Below, piece by piece: positions 1,731-55,951 of a stretch of 64,000 bases of DNA (its first letter is position 1; each line of letters begins with the position of its first letter). This DNA comes from Synechococcus sp. PCC 6312 (lineage in GTDB: Bacteria; Cyanobacteriota; Cyanobacteriia; Thermosynechococcales; Thermosynechococcaceae), in the NCBI RefSeq assembly GCF_000316685.1, contig NC_019680.1, positions 2,295,501 through 2,359,500 of the forward strand. Direction: 5' to 3'. The notes beneath the pieces were generated by a model. That model searched no databases and was not told the DNA's origin. It worked only from the letters and a program-made list of their open reading frames with translations. A program made the position numbers and the translations under genes.

Positions 1731-3998
1731 TTATCCTACTGAGATGATGCGAGCCAGGAAGAACGCCCACGTCGTGGCAATCCCTCCCAACAAGTAGTGG
1801 GCAACCCCAACGGCCCGGCCTTGAATAATGCTCAAAGCACGGGGTTGAATTGCCGGAGCGACTTTCAGCTTGTTATGGGCCCAAACAATGGACTCAATCA
1901 ATTCTTGCCAGTAGCCGCGACCACTGAACAGGAACATCAAGCTAAAGGCCCAAACAAAGTGAGCACCGAGGAACAGCAAGCCGTAAGCCGACAGAGCCGA
2001 ACCATAGGAACCAATCACCTGCGAGGCCTGGGCCCAGAGGAAGTCTCGGAGCCAGCCATTAATCGTAATCGCACTTTGGGCAAAGTTCCCACCGGTAATG
2101 TGAGACACCGTGCCATCGGGCGCAACCGTTCCCCAAACATCCGACTGCATCTTCCAACTGAAGTGGAAAATCACGACTGAGATGCTGTTGTACATCCAGA
2201 ACAAACCGAGGAAAACGTGATCCCAACCAGAAACCTGGCAAGTACCACCCCGGCCTGGGCCATCGCAGGGGAAACGAAAACCTAAATTCGCTTTATCAGG
2301 AATCAGGCGAGAACTGCGGGCAAACAACACACCCTTGAGCAGAATCAACACCGTCACATGAATGGTGAAGGCATGGATGTGATGCACCATAAAGTCAGCC
2401 GTTCCCAAGACAATCGGCATCATTGCCACTTTGCCACCGACGGCAACAATCCCACCGCCAAACGCATAGCTAACTGGAGCTGCTGCATTGGGAGCGGTCG
2501 CACCAGGAGCCAAGGTATGGATATTTTGAATCCATTGGGCAAAGACCGGCTGGAGTTGGATGCCCGTATCCGAGAACATATCTTGGGGACGACCAAAAGC
2601 CCGCATCGTGTCGTTGTGGACGTAGAGGCCGAAACTGTGGAAGCCCAAGAAAATACAAACCCAATTTAAATGGGAAATAATGGCATCCCGATGACGTAAG
2701 ACCCGATCCAAGAGATTGTTTTGGTTCATCGCTGGATCGTAGTCCCGCACCATGTAAATTGCCGCATGGGCCGCACCGCCGACAATAAAGAAGCCACCGA
2801 GCCACATATGGTGGGTAAACAGTGACAGTTGAGTCGGATAGTCCGTTGCCAAGTAGGGATAAGGCGGCATGGCATACATGTGCTGAGCCACGATGATGCT
2901 CAAGGAACCGACCATGGCCAAGTTGATCGCCAATTGGGCATGCCAAGAGGTGGTGAGCACTTCATAGAGACCTTTGTGGCCTTCGCCAGTAAAGGGCCCT
3001 TTATGTGCTTCCAACAATTCTTTGATGCTGTGGCCAATGCCCCAATTGGTGCGGTACATGTGCCCCGCAATGATGAAGAGGACAGCAATGGCCAAGTGAT
3101 GGTGGGCCGTATCGGACAACCACAGGCCACCGGTGACGGGGTTTAAACCACCTTTAAAGGTCAGGAAGTCAGAATAGGCTCCCCAGTTAAAGGTGAAGAA
3201 GGGAATCACCCCTTTAAAAACACCCCAGTCCACCTTGGGATAGAGTTCCGTCATCAAGCTGGGATTGAGAATAAACTCATGGGGCAAGGGAATATCTTTG
3301 ATCGGTACTCCAGCATCCAACAACTTGTTGATCGGTAAGGAGACATGGATCTGGTGTCCGGCCCAACCCAAAGAGCCTAAGCCAAAGAGGCCGGCCAAGT
3401 GGTGGTTAAGCATGGACTCCACATTTTGGAACCATTCCAACTTGGGTGCTTTTTTGTGGTAGTGGAACCAACCAGCAAAGAGCATTAATCCAGCCATAAC
3501 CAGGCCACCGATGGCAGTGACATAAAGCTGAAATTCGTTGGTGATCCCAGAAGCCCGCCAGAGTTGGAACAGGCCCGAGGTAATTTGAATGCCATGGAAG
3601 CCGCCGCCGACATCGCCATTCAGAATGCCTTGACCAACAACGGGCCAAACCACTTGGGCACTGGGTTTAATTCCAGTCGGGTTGGCTAACCAAGCCTCAT
3701 AGTTAGAAAATTTTGCGCCGTGGAAATACATCCCGCTCAGCCAGACGAACACAACAGCCAGGTGGCCGAAGTGGGCACTGAAAATTTTGCGAGATACGTC
3801 TTCCAGGTCGCTGGTATGGGTATCAAAATCATGGGCAAGAGCATGGAGGTTCCAAATCCAGGTTGTGGTTTGGGGACCTCTCGCCAAGGTACGGTCGAAG
3901 TGTCCCGGTTTGGCCCACTTTTCAAAGGAAGTAGGAACCGGATCGCTATCAACAACGACCCTGACTTTTTTCTCTCGCTCCGGTGGACTGATTGTCAT
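1731..3998 (-). CDS. psaA: Photosystem I P700 apoprotein A1
   Basis: PsaA is the partner of PsaB in the photosystem I reaction centre, an 11-helix thylakoid membrane protein that ligates P700, A0, A1 and the Fx cluster. The 755-residue product has the usual length. It contains the Fx loop [12 protein letters not shown] and the His-rich helices [20 protein letters not shown] and [15 protein letters not shown] chose the ATG at 3998 ([17 protein letters not shown]) because it is the conserved N-terminus and has a GGAG ribosome site 8-9 bases upstream; a start 8 codons earlier is also open but unlikely. First gene of the psaA-psaB operon, divergent from the lipoprotein gene at 4361. Confidence 0.98.
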
Positions 3999-4360
3999 CG
4001 AGTCTCTCCTCTCTTTAGACAAAGAAGGAACGAGTTCACTCTCTCCCCAGATACGGAACCTATCAATAAATCAATCAAGACTAAAAGTAATCTTCAATGA
4101 TCATGACAGACTAAGAACAATGAAGCCCTCCGGGGGAGGAATGCTCACTCTCAGAATTATAGAAGCCTGTTCCTCAGTTTGCCGATAGTTAACAATATTT
4201 AAGATGCCTCAATATTCAAGGCTAGTCAGGCTTCGGGCCGTTTCCAAAATGCAGGTTTTGGGCCGAGATTGAAGTTCTTTATCAAGAATGTAACAAAACT
4301 TTATAATTGTGCAGTCTCGGAATTGTAAATTGGTAAAAGTGGCTACATTAGGGGCAACTA
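3999..4360. promoter_or_regulatory. Divergent control region between psaA and the lipoprotein gene
   Basis: This 362-bp gap has no credible gene. For the rightward gene a TATAAT hexamer at 4302-4307 would place transcription start near 4314. Two single copies of the half-site WWTGWAAM recognised by the high-light regulator RpaB (HLR1 element) are visible at 4287-4294 (AATGTAAC) and 4322-4329 (ATTGTAAA), but neither has a good second half at the required 10-base period. psaA promoters in other cyanobacteria are controlled by RpaB through HLR1; whether these half-sites matter here is uncertain. Confidence 0.35.
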
Positions 4361-52466: not shown

Positions 52467-52859
52467 ATGGCCTGGGTAGATGAAATTCAAACTCTGAAGT
52501 CAAAAATAAGCTTGGTGTTAGATCATCCCGCCTCAGTCAAACAGCAGGTAAAAGAAATAACGCTGGTACAAAAGCAACTGCGAGTGATTAAGCGGGAGAT
52601 TAATGCCCAGATTCAACAAATCAATCAAACTGTGGCTCAATCCCGCCCGGATAGCCTTGTTTCTGTTGGCCTGGATTTATTTGGCAAACGCCGGATGGCC
52701 GGAACTGTTCGCTCAATGACACGCCAGGCCATGCAACGGGAAAAACAGGAAGCCCGCCAACCCTATCTTGATCTCAAAAACGATGTGCATCAGTTAATCT
52801 TGGAGGGAGATCGGTTGAAATTAGCCGCCGAAAGTTATCTCAACAGCACGCAACCCTAA
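52467..52859 (+). CDS. Coiled-coil protein of unknown function
   Basis: 130 residues, almost fully helical and charged: KQQVKEITLVQKQLRVIKRE INAQIQQINQTVAQSR, a short non-helical middle (SVGLDLFGKRRMAGTVRSMT) and a second coil (LDLKNDVHQLILEGDRLKLA). No signal or membrane segment. AAAAGGAGAACGCC before the ATG is a strong ribosome site, so it is well expressed if transcribed. It resembles uncharacterised cyanobacterial proteins; no function can be given. Confidence 0.75.
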   Translation: MAWVDEIQTLKSKISLVLDHPASVKQQVKEITLVQKQLRVIKREINAQIQQINQTVAQSRPDSLVSVGLDLFGKRRMAGTVRSMTRQAMQREKQEARQPYLDLKNDVHQLILEGDRLKLAAESYLNSTQP

Positions 52860-52885
52860 CCCTGCACTCTTCAATTTGAACCGAA

Positions 52886-53947
52886 TTAAACGTCCCAAAA
52901 AGGTAGCGGTTGCATTTCAGAATAACCCCGTTCCTTGCAAAAATTAAACGCTTCAACTACGTGTGGAAATTCATTAGCAAAATCACTTTTCATTTGGCTC
53001 AGCAAATTTTGACCCAGTGACTTAGCAAACTTACCTCTTAAGCATTTTTCATACCAAGCAATCAGGTCAGACTCTTTCACAATGCCACGAACACGTTGCC
53101 CCCAGCTAATTTGCTGAATAACAGATTGAATCACAATAGCCTCAGCATCTTTACAGACTATAACTATATGATCACTTTCAACTTGATCAACAATTTTCTC
53201 AGCCAATTTTGGTTTTAGAGTGAGGTGTTTAACCTGAATAGCAGGGCCAAAATTAGCTCACATATCAAGTCCTCTATCTGCCGCATTTGTCACGCCAACT
53301 CGATAAATATGAGCTTGAGTCATTGATGTAGTATTTACAGCACTTACACCTAACAGAACCTGAGTCAAATCATTAAATTCTTCCAACAATTCAATATTTT
53401 TATCTGGTATTTTAACTGATACTTCAACTTCTAAGCTAGATACAATTGTTTCAAACAAACTATAAGTAATGATCTCGTAAACTTTATCAATGCTTCTTCT
53501 CAATCCTGTACTATCAGTAATCAAAGAAAGTAAGTCTTCTAATTTTAATAGTTCATAATTATCAATATCTAGTTTGCGCATAACAGATGCCACCAATTCT
53601 TGACGTTCTATAAACCGATAATATATATAACGTTCAATAGCTCCACCTAATCTCTTATTTTCGGTATCTAAGACTTTAAGATGACTTACTGGCATTGCAT
53701 TTTGATCCCAAAGATTATCTTGGAATCTGGCAGTCGAAGTACAAACTTTTCCTAATAATCGCCGAGTAACATTATCCCTCCATTGCTTTGATGTGTTTCG
53801 ATATGTTTCAACTTGACTGACATCAATATCTTGATTGATTCGTGAATTGTATAAAACCTCTGCAATTTGAATAGGCTTATACAAATCAGTTCGAGCAATA
53901 TTAATAATATTATCTAGCTTTCCTTTAGCTTCATCTATATCAATCAT
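52886..53947 (-). pseudogene. HaeII-like type II restriction endonuclease with an in-frame TGA
   Basis: Two pieces (53258-53947 and 52886-53206) lie in the same frame, separated by one TGA at 53258-53260. Read through, they form about 353 codons, the length I recall for HaeII-type enzymes (RGCGCY cutters). The start resembles that family: EAKGKLDNIINIARTDLYKP IQIAEVLYN. The stop falls in RGLDM(stop)ANFGPAIQVKHLTL, where Trp (TGG) is the simplest original codon. It separates an Asp from the QVK of the PD-(D/E)XK-like active site, so the truncated product lacks catalysis. No other damage seen. Lies 44 bp after the methyltransferase gene. Assignment to HaeII is by remembered similarity. Confidence 0.65.
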
Positions 53948-53991
53948 CTAAATTATTCTTGAATTAATTTGTTATGTAAAATATTCTAAAT

Positions 53992-54963
53992 CTAGAGAAA
54001 GGCTAGTTGTTTGATGTCATAGTTTAAAGATGAAGATATGTTTGGATTTTTCAAGGTAAGTAAGACTGCTTTGATGACGGAAAGAGCACATGGAACAACT
54101 ATAGAATTACCCGCCAACTTACGCATAATACTATAACCATAAATGATCTTAAATGAATCAGGAAAACCCAACAGTCTCAGCATTTCCCGCTCAGTAAGTC
54201 GGCGTTCACCATTGACAAGCAAGTAGTTGTAAGACGCTCCGGCTCTCATCGCACATGAGTAAGGGTATGCGCTAAGGTGTCCAGATTTATTTTCATGCCA
54301 AATAGTTGGTGGCTCTGGAAGTTTTCCTTCAAATTTCTCTAGGCGACTTTGACGAATTTTAGGGGAAGCATAATAAAAATCTGATACCTTGGTTTCAAGT
54401 AAATCTGCTAAGGACTGCATTGGAATCTTTCGGGTTGGCCAGTCAAAATTATACGGTTCCCTAAACCCAACTATAAAAATTCGCTCTCTTTTGTGTGGAA
54501 TACCAAAGTCTAATCCATTAAGAACCTTATAATCTGCGAAATATCCAATTTCATGTAGTATGTCTAAAATTCGTCTTAAGGTTTTTCCGTGATTATGCCC
54601 CACTAATTGCTTAACATTTTCTAAAACAAAAGCAACTGGGCGTTTTTCTCTCAATATTCTAGCGATCTCGAAAAATAACGTTCCACGAGAATCTTCAAAT
54701 CCCTTAAGGTCTCCACAAATAGAAAATGGTTGACAAGGAAATCCTGCGAATAATAAATCATGATCAGGGATATCTTTTGATTCTATCGTTGTAATATCAC
54801 TCTGAGGATAGTCTTCAAAATTTTCAAAGTATGTTTGTTGTGCATGACTATCTATATCGCATGAAAAAACCCATTTAAGATCAATACCTAAGTCTTTAGA
54901 CGCTTGATTTGCTGCAACCCTAAAGCCGCCAATTCCACAAAATAAGTCAATACATTTAAACAT
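53992..54963 (-). CDS. C5-cytosine DNA methyltransferase
   Basis: 323 residues with all main motifs of bacterial cytosine-5 methylases: CIDLFCGIGGFRVAANQASK (I, SAM), LFAGFPCQPFSICGDLKGFE (IV, catalytic Cys), VAFVLENVKQLVGHNHGKTL (VI), HKRERIFIVGF (VIII), a target region (about 175-255), then RRLTEREMLRLLGFPDSFKI (IX) and RKLAGNSIVVP (X). It appears intact. Its partner restriction gene follows directly and is broken, so this is now a solitary methylase. Low-GC, AT-rich codons compared with the neighbours suggest the pair was acquired. Confidence 0.92.
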   Translation of the reverse strand: MFKCIDLFCGIGGFRVAANQASKDLGIDLKWVFSCDIDSHAQQTYFENFEDYPQSDITTIESKDIPDHDLLFAGFPCQPFSICGDLKGFEDSRGTLFFEIARILREKRPVAFVLENVKQLVGHNHGKTLRRILDILHEIGYFADYKVLNGLDFGIPHKRERIFIVGFREPYNFDWPTRKIPMQSLADLLETKVSDFYYASPKIRQSRLEKFEGKLPEPPTIWHENKSGHLSAYPYSCAMRAGASYNYLLVNGERRLTEREMLRLLGFPDSFKIIYGYSIMRKLAGNSIVVPCALSVIKAVLLTLKNPNISSSLNYDIKQLAFL

Positions 54964-55088
54964 TTGAGAATTATATGATGAACATTTGAGGATTGCATGA
55001 ACCTTACTTTGTCGGAATTATAACATTGATAAGCTCAATTAGCCATAAGACTGGGACACAAGTTAAAACAGACATAAATTGCCGACCG

Positions 55089-55349
55089 TTAAGCATGATT
55101 CTCTTGTTTTGCCACTACTAATAAATCTGCCAGGGTTTGTGCTGCATCGTAAGCATCATAGGGCGACCAGACAACCGCTTCACTAGCTTCTAGTTGCTTG
55201 AGCATTTCGATTTCCGTTTCCCGAATATCAGAAGTATGCAAATCAAAGCCTTCATCTTTGGCCACTGCCATTAACAGCAAATGAATTAGGCGCAGTTTAT
55301 CTTGATGGGATAGTTGATTGACAACAGGGAATAATTCAGTGAGGAGCAT
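55089..55349 (-). CDS. Small cyanobacterial protein of unknown function
   Basis: 86 residues: MLLTELFPVVNQLSHQDKLR LIHLLLMAVAKDEGF, then EMLKQLEASEAVVWSPYDAY DAAQTLADLL. Similar small proteins are frequent in cyanobacteria, often near toxin-type genes, but I know of no assigned function. No partner toxin is adjacent here: upstream is the ndk promoter region and downstream the restriction-modification locus. Soluble and helical. Confidence 0.65.
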   Translation of the reverse strand: MLLTELFPVVNQLSHQDKLRLIHLLLMAVAKDEGFDLHTSDIRETEIEMLKQLEASEAVVWSPYDAYDAAQTLADLLVVAKQENHA

Positions 55350-55501
55350 AATTTTTATGGAAAAGATTGATTGACTAGGGTTGCAGCTATGCTAACTCAA
55401 AACGTCTGTTAATTCTTTAGTCACAACTCAGGTCGGCGGCCCCTCAACCAAACACAGGTAAAATGAGCTTGCATATCCATTCACATTGAGGAGACAGCAG
55501 C

Positions 55502-55951
55502 GTGGAACGGACATTCCTGGCCATTAAACCGGATGGGGTACAACGGGGCCTGGTGGGTGAAATTATCCAACGTCTAGAACAAAAAGGATTTACTCTTGTA
55601 GGTCTGAAACTACTTCAAGTCAGCAAAGAACTAGCCTCAACTCACTACGGCGAACATCAAGCCAAGCCCTTTTTTCCAGGCCTGGTGGAGTTTATTACCT
55701 CGGGGCCGGTGGTAGCGATGGTTTGGGAAGGTAAAGGTGTCATTGCCACAGCCCGGAAAATGATTGGCGCGACAAACCCCTTAAATTCTGAGCCAGGCAC
55801 AATTCGGGGCGACTTTGGGGTTGATGTGGGTCGCAATGTCATCCATGGTTCCGATGCCCCTGAAACTGCTGTCAAGGAAATTAGCCTTTGGTTTCAACCG
55901 GAAGAACTCGTGGCCTGGTCGCCTAGTTTAACTCCGTGGATTTATGAGTAG
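55502..55951 (+). CDS. ndk: Nucleoside diphosphate kinase
   Basis: Transfers gamma-phosphate between nucleoside di- and triphosphates through a phospho-His. 149 residues. [20 protein letters not shown] (start), [27 protein letters not shown], and the active-site motif [12 protein letters not shown] with the catalytic His (about 115). Start is GTG 55502 with GAGGAGA upstream. The last 29 bases overlap the end of the convergent TerC gene. Confidence 0.97.

Follow-up and report, generated by a model that had tools for sequence, protein, structure and literature searches.

A HaeII-Type Restriction-Modification Pair of Synechococcus sp. PCC 6312 with a TGA-Interrupted Endonuclease Gene and a Full-Length Methyltransferase Gene

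Results

An endonuclease gene of the HaeII family is interrupted by a single TGA codon

The window, by which we mean the whole stretch of 64,000 nucleotides of Synechococcus sp. PCC 6312 DNA that was analysed, carries a gene for a C5-cytosine DNA methyltransferase (M) and, downstream of it on the same strand, a gene for a type II restriction endonuclease of the HaeII family (R). The features of the locus are collected in Table 1. The original prediction had described R as one continuous frame except for the TGA, and this is what we found: the 353 codons contain a single internal stop and no frameshift. The proposed kinship with HaeII was borne out in two ways, since PF09554 matched both halves of the gene in a profile search and R was 46.8% identical in alignment to the endonuclease of the Haemophilus aegyptius HaeII locus (L059). 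Residues 7-229, before the TGA, matched positions 1-223 of the RE_HaeII profile (E 1.3e-88, 297.9 bits), and the part after it matched positions 225-338 of 338 (E 5.1e-44, 151.4 bits; cut-off 25 bits in both cases). The two matches are in register, with exactly one profile position between them for the TGA, and together run the length of the profile, as is expected of a family member. An in-register match over 353 codons with a single stop is far beyond chance.

Table 1. Features of the HaeII-type locus, with positions counted in the window
Feature	Position	Strand	Remarks
HaeII-family type II restriction endonuclease gene (R), 353 codons, predicted pseudogene	52886..53947	-	PF09554 RE_HaeII, both halves
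TGA stop, R codon 230	53258..53260	-	Mostly aromatic column: W or Y in 108 of the 113 rows
Presumed catalytic segment of R, Asp228 to Gln238-Val-Lys240	53228..53266	-	D228, Q238 and K240 invariant in the 113 rows
Possible C-terminal fragment of R, start TTG at codon 248	52886..53206	-	Lacks Gln238 and Lys240
C5-cytosine DNA methyltransferase gene (M), 323 aa, full-length, predicted RGCGCY (m5C)	53992..54963	-	PF00145, E 7.6e-80
Open frame of 86 aa between the R-M pair and ndk	55089-55349		No Pfam match
Interval free of CCAGGCC/GGCCTGG that holds the R-M pair; outer bound for putative imported DNA	52731..55546	.	Longest gap

The stop had been placed between the Asp and the QVK of a likely catalytic motif. 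The TGA does sit between D228 and the pair Q238/K240, all three invariant in the alignment, and from this conservation they are presumed to be catalytic, as part of a putative PD-(D/E)xK-like core. The frame across D228, Q238 and K240 is therefore interrupted where a working enzyme would need it open, and R is best read as a pseudogene of the HaeII family, not as a working member. The alignment consists of 113 R rows with at least 300 matched residues each, a few genomes being present twice. At codon 230 the column holds W in 70 rows, among them that of the window, which was entered as W; 38 rows have Y, two F and one I, and the two rows with a stop are one genome, Chroococcus sp. FPU101 (L033 and L137). 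In the named-genome loci W is partly selected for, because the patterns of the search that gave them included DMW[AT]NFG; the loci that also hold YKPIQ, as most named-genome loci do, are free of that bias.

The product truncated at the TGA has 229 residues, ends directly after Asp228-Met229 and lacks Gln238 and Lys240. The first ATG, GTG or TTG past the stop is codon 248, beyond both of these residues, so they are encoded in neither fragment. An AlphaFold model of R (one job) had a mean pLDDT of 82.5, with residues 219-232 below 50, and a Foldseek comparison of this model, poor at 219-232, with the PDB gave no match at E up to 0.001. Sequence searches likewise gave no solved relative of R at E up to 1. 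Placing the stop in the active site from predicted structure was dropped, because pLDDT is low exactly at residues 219-232 and no PDB fold matched.

The methyltransferase gene and its predicted specificity

M lies just upstream of R (54963-53992), as had been stated. The further claim that it has every motif held in part. The match to PF00145 is full-length, and motifs I, IV (PCQ), VI (ENV) and X (GNS) are intact; motif VIII reads HKRER where the family has QKRER, with His for Gln at the first position. The names I, IV, VI, VIII (QxRxR) and X are those that we take to belong to these sequence blocks. The best solved relative of M is M.HhaI (chain 10mh_A, E 4.4e-58). L099 has the motif VIII His as well, and so does L141, where an open R is fused to the methylase. 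The activity of M is less certain than its intact frame would suggest.

Over 44 columns, the target-recognition block of M shares 79.5% identity with its counterpart in the H. aegyptius HaeII locus and 90.9-93.2% with those of L003 and L008, cyanobacterial methyltransferases beside an intact R. Because of this kinship and the conservation of the target-recognition block, M is predicted to modify RGCGCY to m5C.

We also counted RGCGCY in a 464-kb sample of the host genome, in which 44 sites were observed and 147 expected (O/E 0.30); it was the scarcest of the 16 R-palindrome-Y classes in this sample, and YGCGCR was likewise scarce (O/E 0.49). The O/E in four members of the family was 0.87 (G089), 0.83 (G398), 0.92 (G399) and 0.15 (G280). 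G280, which belongs to a sister genus (L189-L198), has 9 RGCGCY sites in 200 kb; no HaeII-family R was found in it, and its M match was only weak. The scarcity of RGCGCY is thus not specific, because the site is scarcer still in a genome without a HaeII-family R. The host has a BanI-like endonuclease gene (PF24447, E 8e-137) adjoining a C5 methylase gene, both open (L160:9928-12290, at about 2.126 Mb). By individual sequence, the O/E in the host was 0.09 for GGCGCC, 0.34 for AGCGCT and 0.44 for AGCGCC/GGCGCT. On the recognition site that we presume for BanI, the BanI-like system alone could thin GGCGCC, but not AGCGCT or AGCGCC/GGCGCT. Avoidance of RGCGCY was rejected as proof of past restriction, given that G280 avoids the site without the gene and that YGCGCR is scarce too; it is only suggestive of HaeII-type restriction.

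An AT-rich gene pair within the longest gap of an iterated heptamer

The GC content of R (0.345) and M (0.369) is below that of the window (0.487), and third-position GC is 0.23 in R and 0.28 in M, compared with 0.46 in ndk and 0.58 in htpG. The heptamer CCAGGCC/GGCCTGG occurs at 206 sites in the window, and its longest gap, from the site at 52724 to that at 55547, encloses both genes; none falls in 52886-54963, and of 1239 sliding segments as long as this interval no more than 20 are empty. Because the pair is AT-rich and lies inside the longest heptamer gap, it was probably imported horizontally.

The heptamer itself occurs 1403 times in the 464-kb sample (L149-L168), or 3.02 per kb, which is 29 times the zero-order expectation; in four family relatives its density is 0.04-0.32 per kb. 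HIP1 is nearly absent from the host, with 7 GCGATCGC in 464 kb, and CCAGGCC/GGCCTGG looks like an alternative highly iterated sequence. A study that covers cyanobacterial methylases and site abundance (PMC4390886) has no mention of '6312' in its main text.

An empty-site comparison was made at the ndk/htpG boundary in 11 relatives. In eight of them terC lies on the ndk side within the stretch examined, and it was not found in the stretches from the other three, two of which are short; none of ORF55089, ORF52467 and htpG was found across the boundary within about 1.5 kb in the 11 relatives. Synteny does not define the insertion point, because none of these three window genes turned up in the stretches from the relatives. 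A search of plasmid DNA gave only distant methylase matches (13% query cover) among the matches listed (20 of 51 records), and a phage search with R gave no match.

R is broken beside a full-length M in many relatives

Cyanobacterial genomes were sampled in two draws that overlap. The first, of 386 genomes, contained 16 with a match and the second, of 388, contained 36; together these are 38 distinct genomes. This tally was seeded with R, and methylases whose R has wholly vanished therefore fall outside the count. Classed by reading frame, an intact R with a full-length M was found in 18 of the 38 genomes (two of these have one fused M-R protein), and a broken R with a full-length M in 12, the host of the window included (G000, G048, G070, G087, G116, G234, G340, G432, G436, G565, G606 and G615). 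The reverse, an intact R with M missing or broken, was found in none. The 12 genomes carry ten genus labels, and the three that share a genus have different lesions; the R of G234 has an early stop of its own before a contig end cuts off the rest. In one genome M and R are both truncated in one frame (G637), and in another a fused M-R gene has an internal deletion in R and an altered motif VIII (G639). Three genomes have an R remnant without M (G143, G183 and G268), and three were left unclassed: G506 lies at a contig edge, and for G514 and G624 no locus was taken. The motif X pattern missed four methylases of the tally, in which the alignment shows GNT.

Ninety further loci came from other collections, 80 from named genomes (the best 80 of 225 relatives) and 10 from viral contigs. 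A single-protein scan of contigs found no loci, and a profile scan recovered the named-genome set. As the 90 are best-scoring relatives, they are biased toward an open R, and some repeat the tallied cyanobacterial genomes; in 81 of them R and M are each read in a single frame, with no fewer than 300 matched residues for R and 280 for M. Two loci, L031 and L033, have stops in R and a full-length M, and three (L026, L080 and L089) are cut by contig ends. In another three (L019, L048 and L078) R is open, there is no C5 M, and R overlaps a large frame of the N6/N4 methylase type, for which a swap of methylase partner is possible. The remaining locus, L081, from an Oscillospiraceae metagenome-assembled genome, has an open R and an M spread over two overlapping frames, the second of which is fused to R. 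The original prediction had called loss of the endonuclease before the methylase the expected safe order of decay, and the tally agrees with it, 12 to 0 in the 38 cyanobacterial genomes; L081, whose methylase may be frameshifted, is the one locus among the 90 that opposes this order, unless the split of its M is an assembly error or marks a two-part enzyme.

An in-frame deletion joins the truncated M to the truncated R in G637 (L144), and in G639 (L145/L036) an in-frame deletion takes out part of R inside the M-R fusion, with motif VIII altered. L008 (442-2547) and L141 each encode M and R as a single fused open frame of roughly 700 aa, in which we saw no lesion, and Pfam finds both domains in the L008 fusion. 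The two frames of L081 span 1367-2539 and 2131-4050. In the loci noted at L019:3935-6340, L048:3923-6265 and L078:2779-5124, the large frame that overlaps R has N6_N4_Mtase and DUF1156-like matches.

Stop-bearing R genes depart from conserved columns

We saw internal stops in six distinct full-length R genes: that of the window (TGA at codon 230), that of Chroococcus sp. FPU101 (TGA at codon 230 and a second TGA, Trp-aligned, near the C-terminus), those of G070 (TAA, codon 190), G565 (TAA, codon 133) and G436 (TGA, codon 244, at a Leu-aligned position), and that of Candidatus Cyanaurora vandensis (L031; TAA). We compared departures from the 75 R columns conserved to at least 95% and from 91 conserved M columns, after rows more than 97% identical had been removed, which left 98 of 113 R rows and 99 of 115 M rows. 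The six had on average 3.33 R departures and the remaining rows 0.62 (P below 1e-4, 20,000 permutations), an excess that holds after regression on distance. At the same loci the mean for M was 2.00, compared with 0.85 in the rows outside them (P 0.058 raw, 0.37 after regression). As all six genes are cyanobacterial, a control was run with cyanobacterial rows only; R then gave 3.33 and 0.79 (19 other rows; 1 of 20,000 permutations), and M gave 2.00 and 1.19 (26 other rows; 2136 of 20,000 permutations). As a group, the stop-bearing R genes are under relaxed constraint, and M is not clearly so. Within the window, R has 4 departures, the second highest residual of 98 rows, and M has 5, the third highest of 99; for this locus alone R is not worse than M, and the contrast between the two genes fails.

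Discussion

We consider it very probable that an imported HaeII-type pair lost its endonuclease through one nonsense mutation in a presumably catalytic segment and that its methyltransferase is still encoded in full. The comparison shows the lesion, the kinship, the order of loss across relatives and, for the stop-bearing R genes as a group, relaxed constraint; loss of R activity, the activity and specificity of M, and the import are what we infer from the sequence. In outline, a HaeII-type pair would have been acquired horizontally by a cyanobacterial chromosome, and a single nonsense mutation would then have hit the conserved, presumably catalytic segment of R. No cleavage would be expected, because the 229-residue product lacks Gln238 and Lys240 and a reinitiated fragment would begin past both. 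Loss of the nuclease first would be harmless, because the sites stay methylated, whereas a chromosome that lost the methylase first would be open to cutting. The decay seen here would leave a predicted solitary m5C methyltransferase for RGCGCY. Endonuclease-first decay is an ordinary and apparently common way for restriction-modification systems to die.

This reading can be extended, without conflict, to the case in which both partners are already non-functional, M drifting as well and no RGCGCY mark being left. M may itself be starting to drift, as its 5 departures from 91 conserved columns (mean 0.85 elsewhere) and the change of Gln to His in motif VIII would suggest. Against this stand its full-length open frame, the intact motifs I, IV, VI and X, the well-conserved target-recognition block, and the presence of the same His in L099 and in L141, where R is open, and we regard the loss of both partners as rather unlikely.

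A sequencing or assembly error at the TGA would mean that R is intact in the living strain and that the pair is a working restriction-modification system. There is one lesion in an otherwise open frame, and it is read from a single assembly. That assembly, however, has 3.72 Mb in 2 contigs at 99.99% completeness; R has its 4 departures at conserved columns, second highest in residual among the 98 rows; and relatives often have a full-length M next to a broken R (12 of 38 genomes, counting the host). Relaxed constraint in the stop-bearing genes favours genuine decay over a stray read error, although M of the window is divergent too, and we judge such an error improbable.

Low-level readthrough of UGA by tRNA-Trp is established in bacteria. 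If it occurred here, Trp would be put back at codon 230, a trickle of working R would be made, and the stop would act as a dimmer. Trp is the commonest residue in the codon-230 column, and the R of Chroococcus sp. FPU101 (L033:3676-3678, and L137), only 51.9% identical to that of the window, also reads TGA at codon 230; its frame is open but for this stop and the second, C-terminal TGA, again aligned with Trp. A dead ancestor common to the two genes is unlikely, because FPU101 R is 51.9% identical to window R and 64.5% identical to that of L003. Under simple mutation models, however, two nonsense events fall in one codon with a chance of 0.9-1.7% per pair, and about 0.13-0.26 such coincidences are expected over the 15 pairs of six stop-bearing genes, so the recurrence at codon 230 is unremarkable. 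In each of the other four genes the main stop is of another kind, TAA in three and a TGA at a Leu-aligned position in one, and both TGA-230 genes are under relaxed constraint. The shared TGA was accordingly rejected as proof of recoding, since chance can account for it and the other main stops differ.

Nor does the host show a general sign of reading TGA. TGA terminates 44 of 265 long ORFs sampled, and the median extension past the stop is 11.5 codons for TGA, 11 for TAG and 8 for TAA. One tRNA-Trp, with anticodon CCA, was among the 39 tRNAs found, and none of the 39 has a UCA anticodon (150 of 171 candidates scored). Genome-wide UGA recoding or a suppressor tRNA was rejected, as TGA acts as an ordinary terminator in the sampled ORFs and no UCA anticodon is present among these tRNAs. 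A tRNA-Sec search gave only sub-threshold matches in the host, and matches also in 14 of 14 control genomes, above the cut-off in five, so that the host does not stand out. Readthrough attenuation in the window thus appears highly improbable to us, and we give equally little credence to a recurrent dimmer, in which UGA at the same Trp position in two distant cyanobacterial HaeII systems would, by near-cognate readthrough, yield a little normal endonuclease next to a fully expressed methylase and so keep restriction low and safe. A split enzyme, put together from separate products of the two open frames (229 and 106 codons), is scarcely credible, with codon 248 beyond Q238/K240, so that neither fragment holds the conserved pair, and R in one frame in all 18 intact relatives.

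Several known systems are close to this locus. The H. aegyptius HaeII system shares with it the Pfam family of R, the order M then R and a sequence identity of 46.8% for R and 49.8% for M; it differs in that the window has a stop in the conserved core of R, an altered motif VIII in M and a cyanobacterial host. Gonococcal records hold an R that is 46.9% identical to that of the window over 95% of its length, presumably the gene of NgoAI. The table row for NgoAI of Neisseria gonorrhoeae in PMC6789123 gives RGCGCY, 5mC, 'Yes' and 25/25 strains and, unlike the window, reports no loss of this kind. M.HhaI, the closest solved relative of M, differs in that the HhaI site is the GCGC core without the R and Y flanks; in the HaeII protection assay of PMC6332214, M.HhaI modification blocks HaeII. 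The FPU101 locus likewise has a full-length M and a TGA at the same R codon; it differs in its extra TGA near the C-terminus and in being only about half identical in R.

Solitary (orphan) methyltransferases are a known class in which the methylase is kept and the endonuclease disrupted, and PMC6789123 describes methylases that are functional beside a disrupted or absent endonuclease. In the host genome only the window locus matched the HaeII family, and its R is broken, so no working cognate endonuclease of this family accompanies M. At this locus, as a point of difference, the dead endonuclease gene is still adjacent and nearly full length, and the loss therefore looks recent. Among the articles listed in our searches of open-licence literature, none reports this HaeII-type locus. 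The pair is a good, clean example of a dying restriction-modification system, not a new kind.

The HaeII-type loci of cyanobacteria form a natural series, from both genes intact, through a dead R beside M, to R remnants without M. Our tally puts figures, 12 against 0 among 38 genomes, on an order of loss that has long been assumed to be the safe one, and the freshly orphaned m5C methylases in this series are testable cases.
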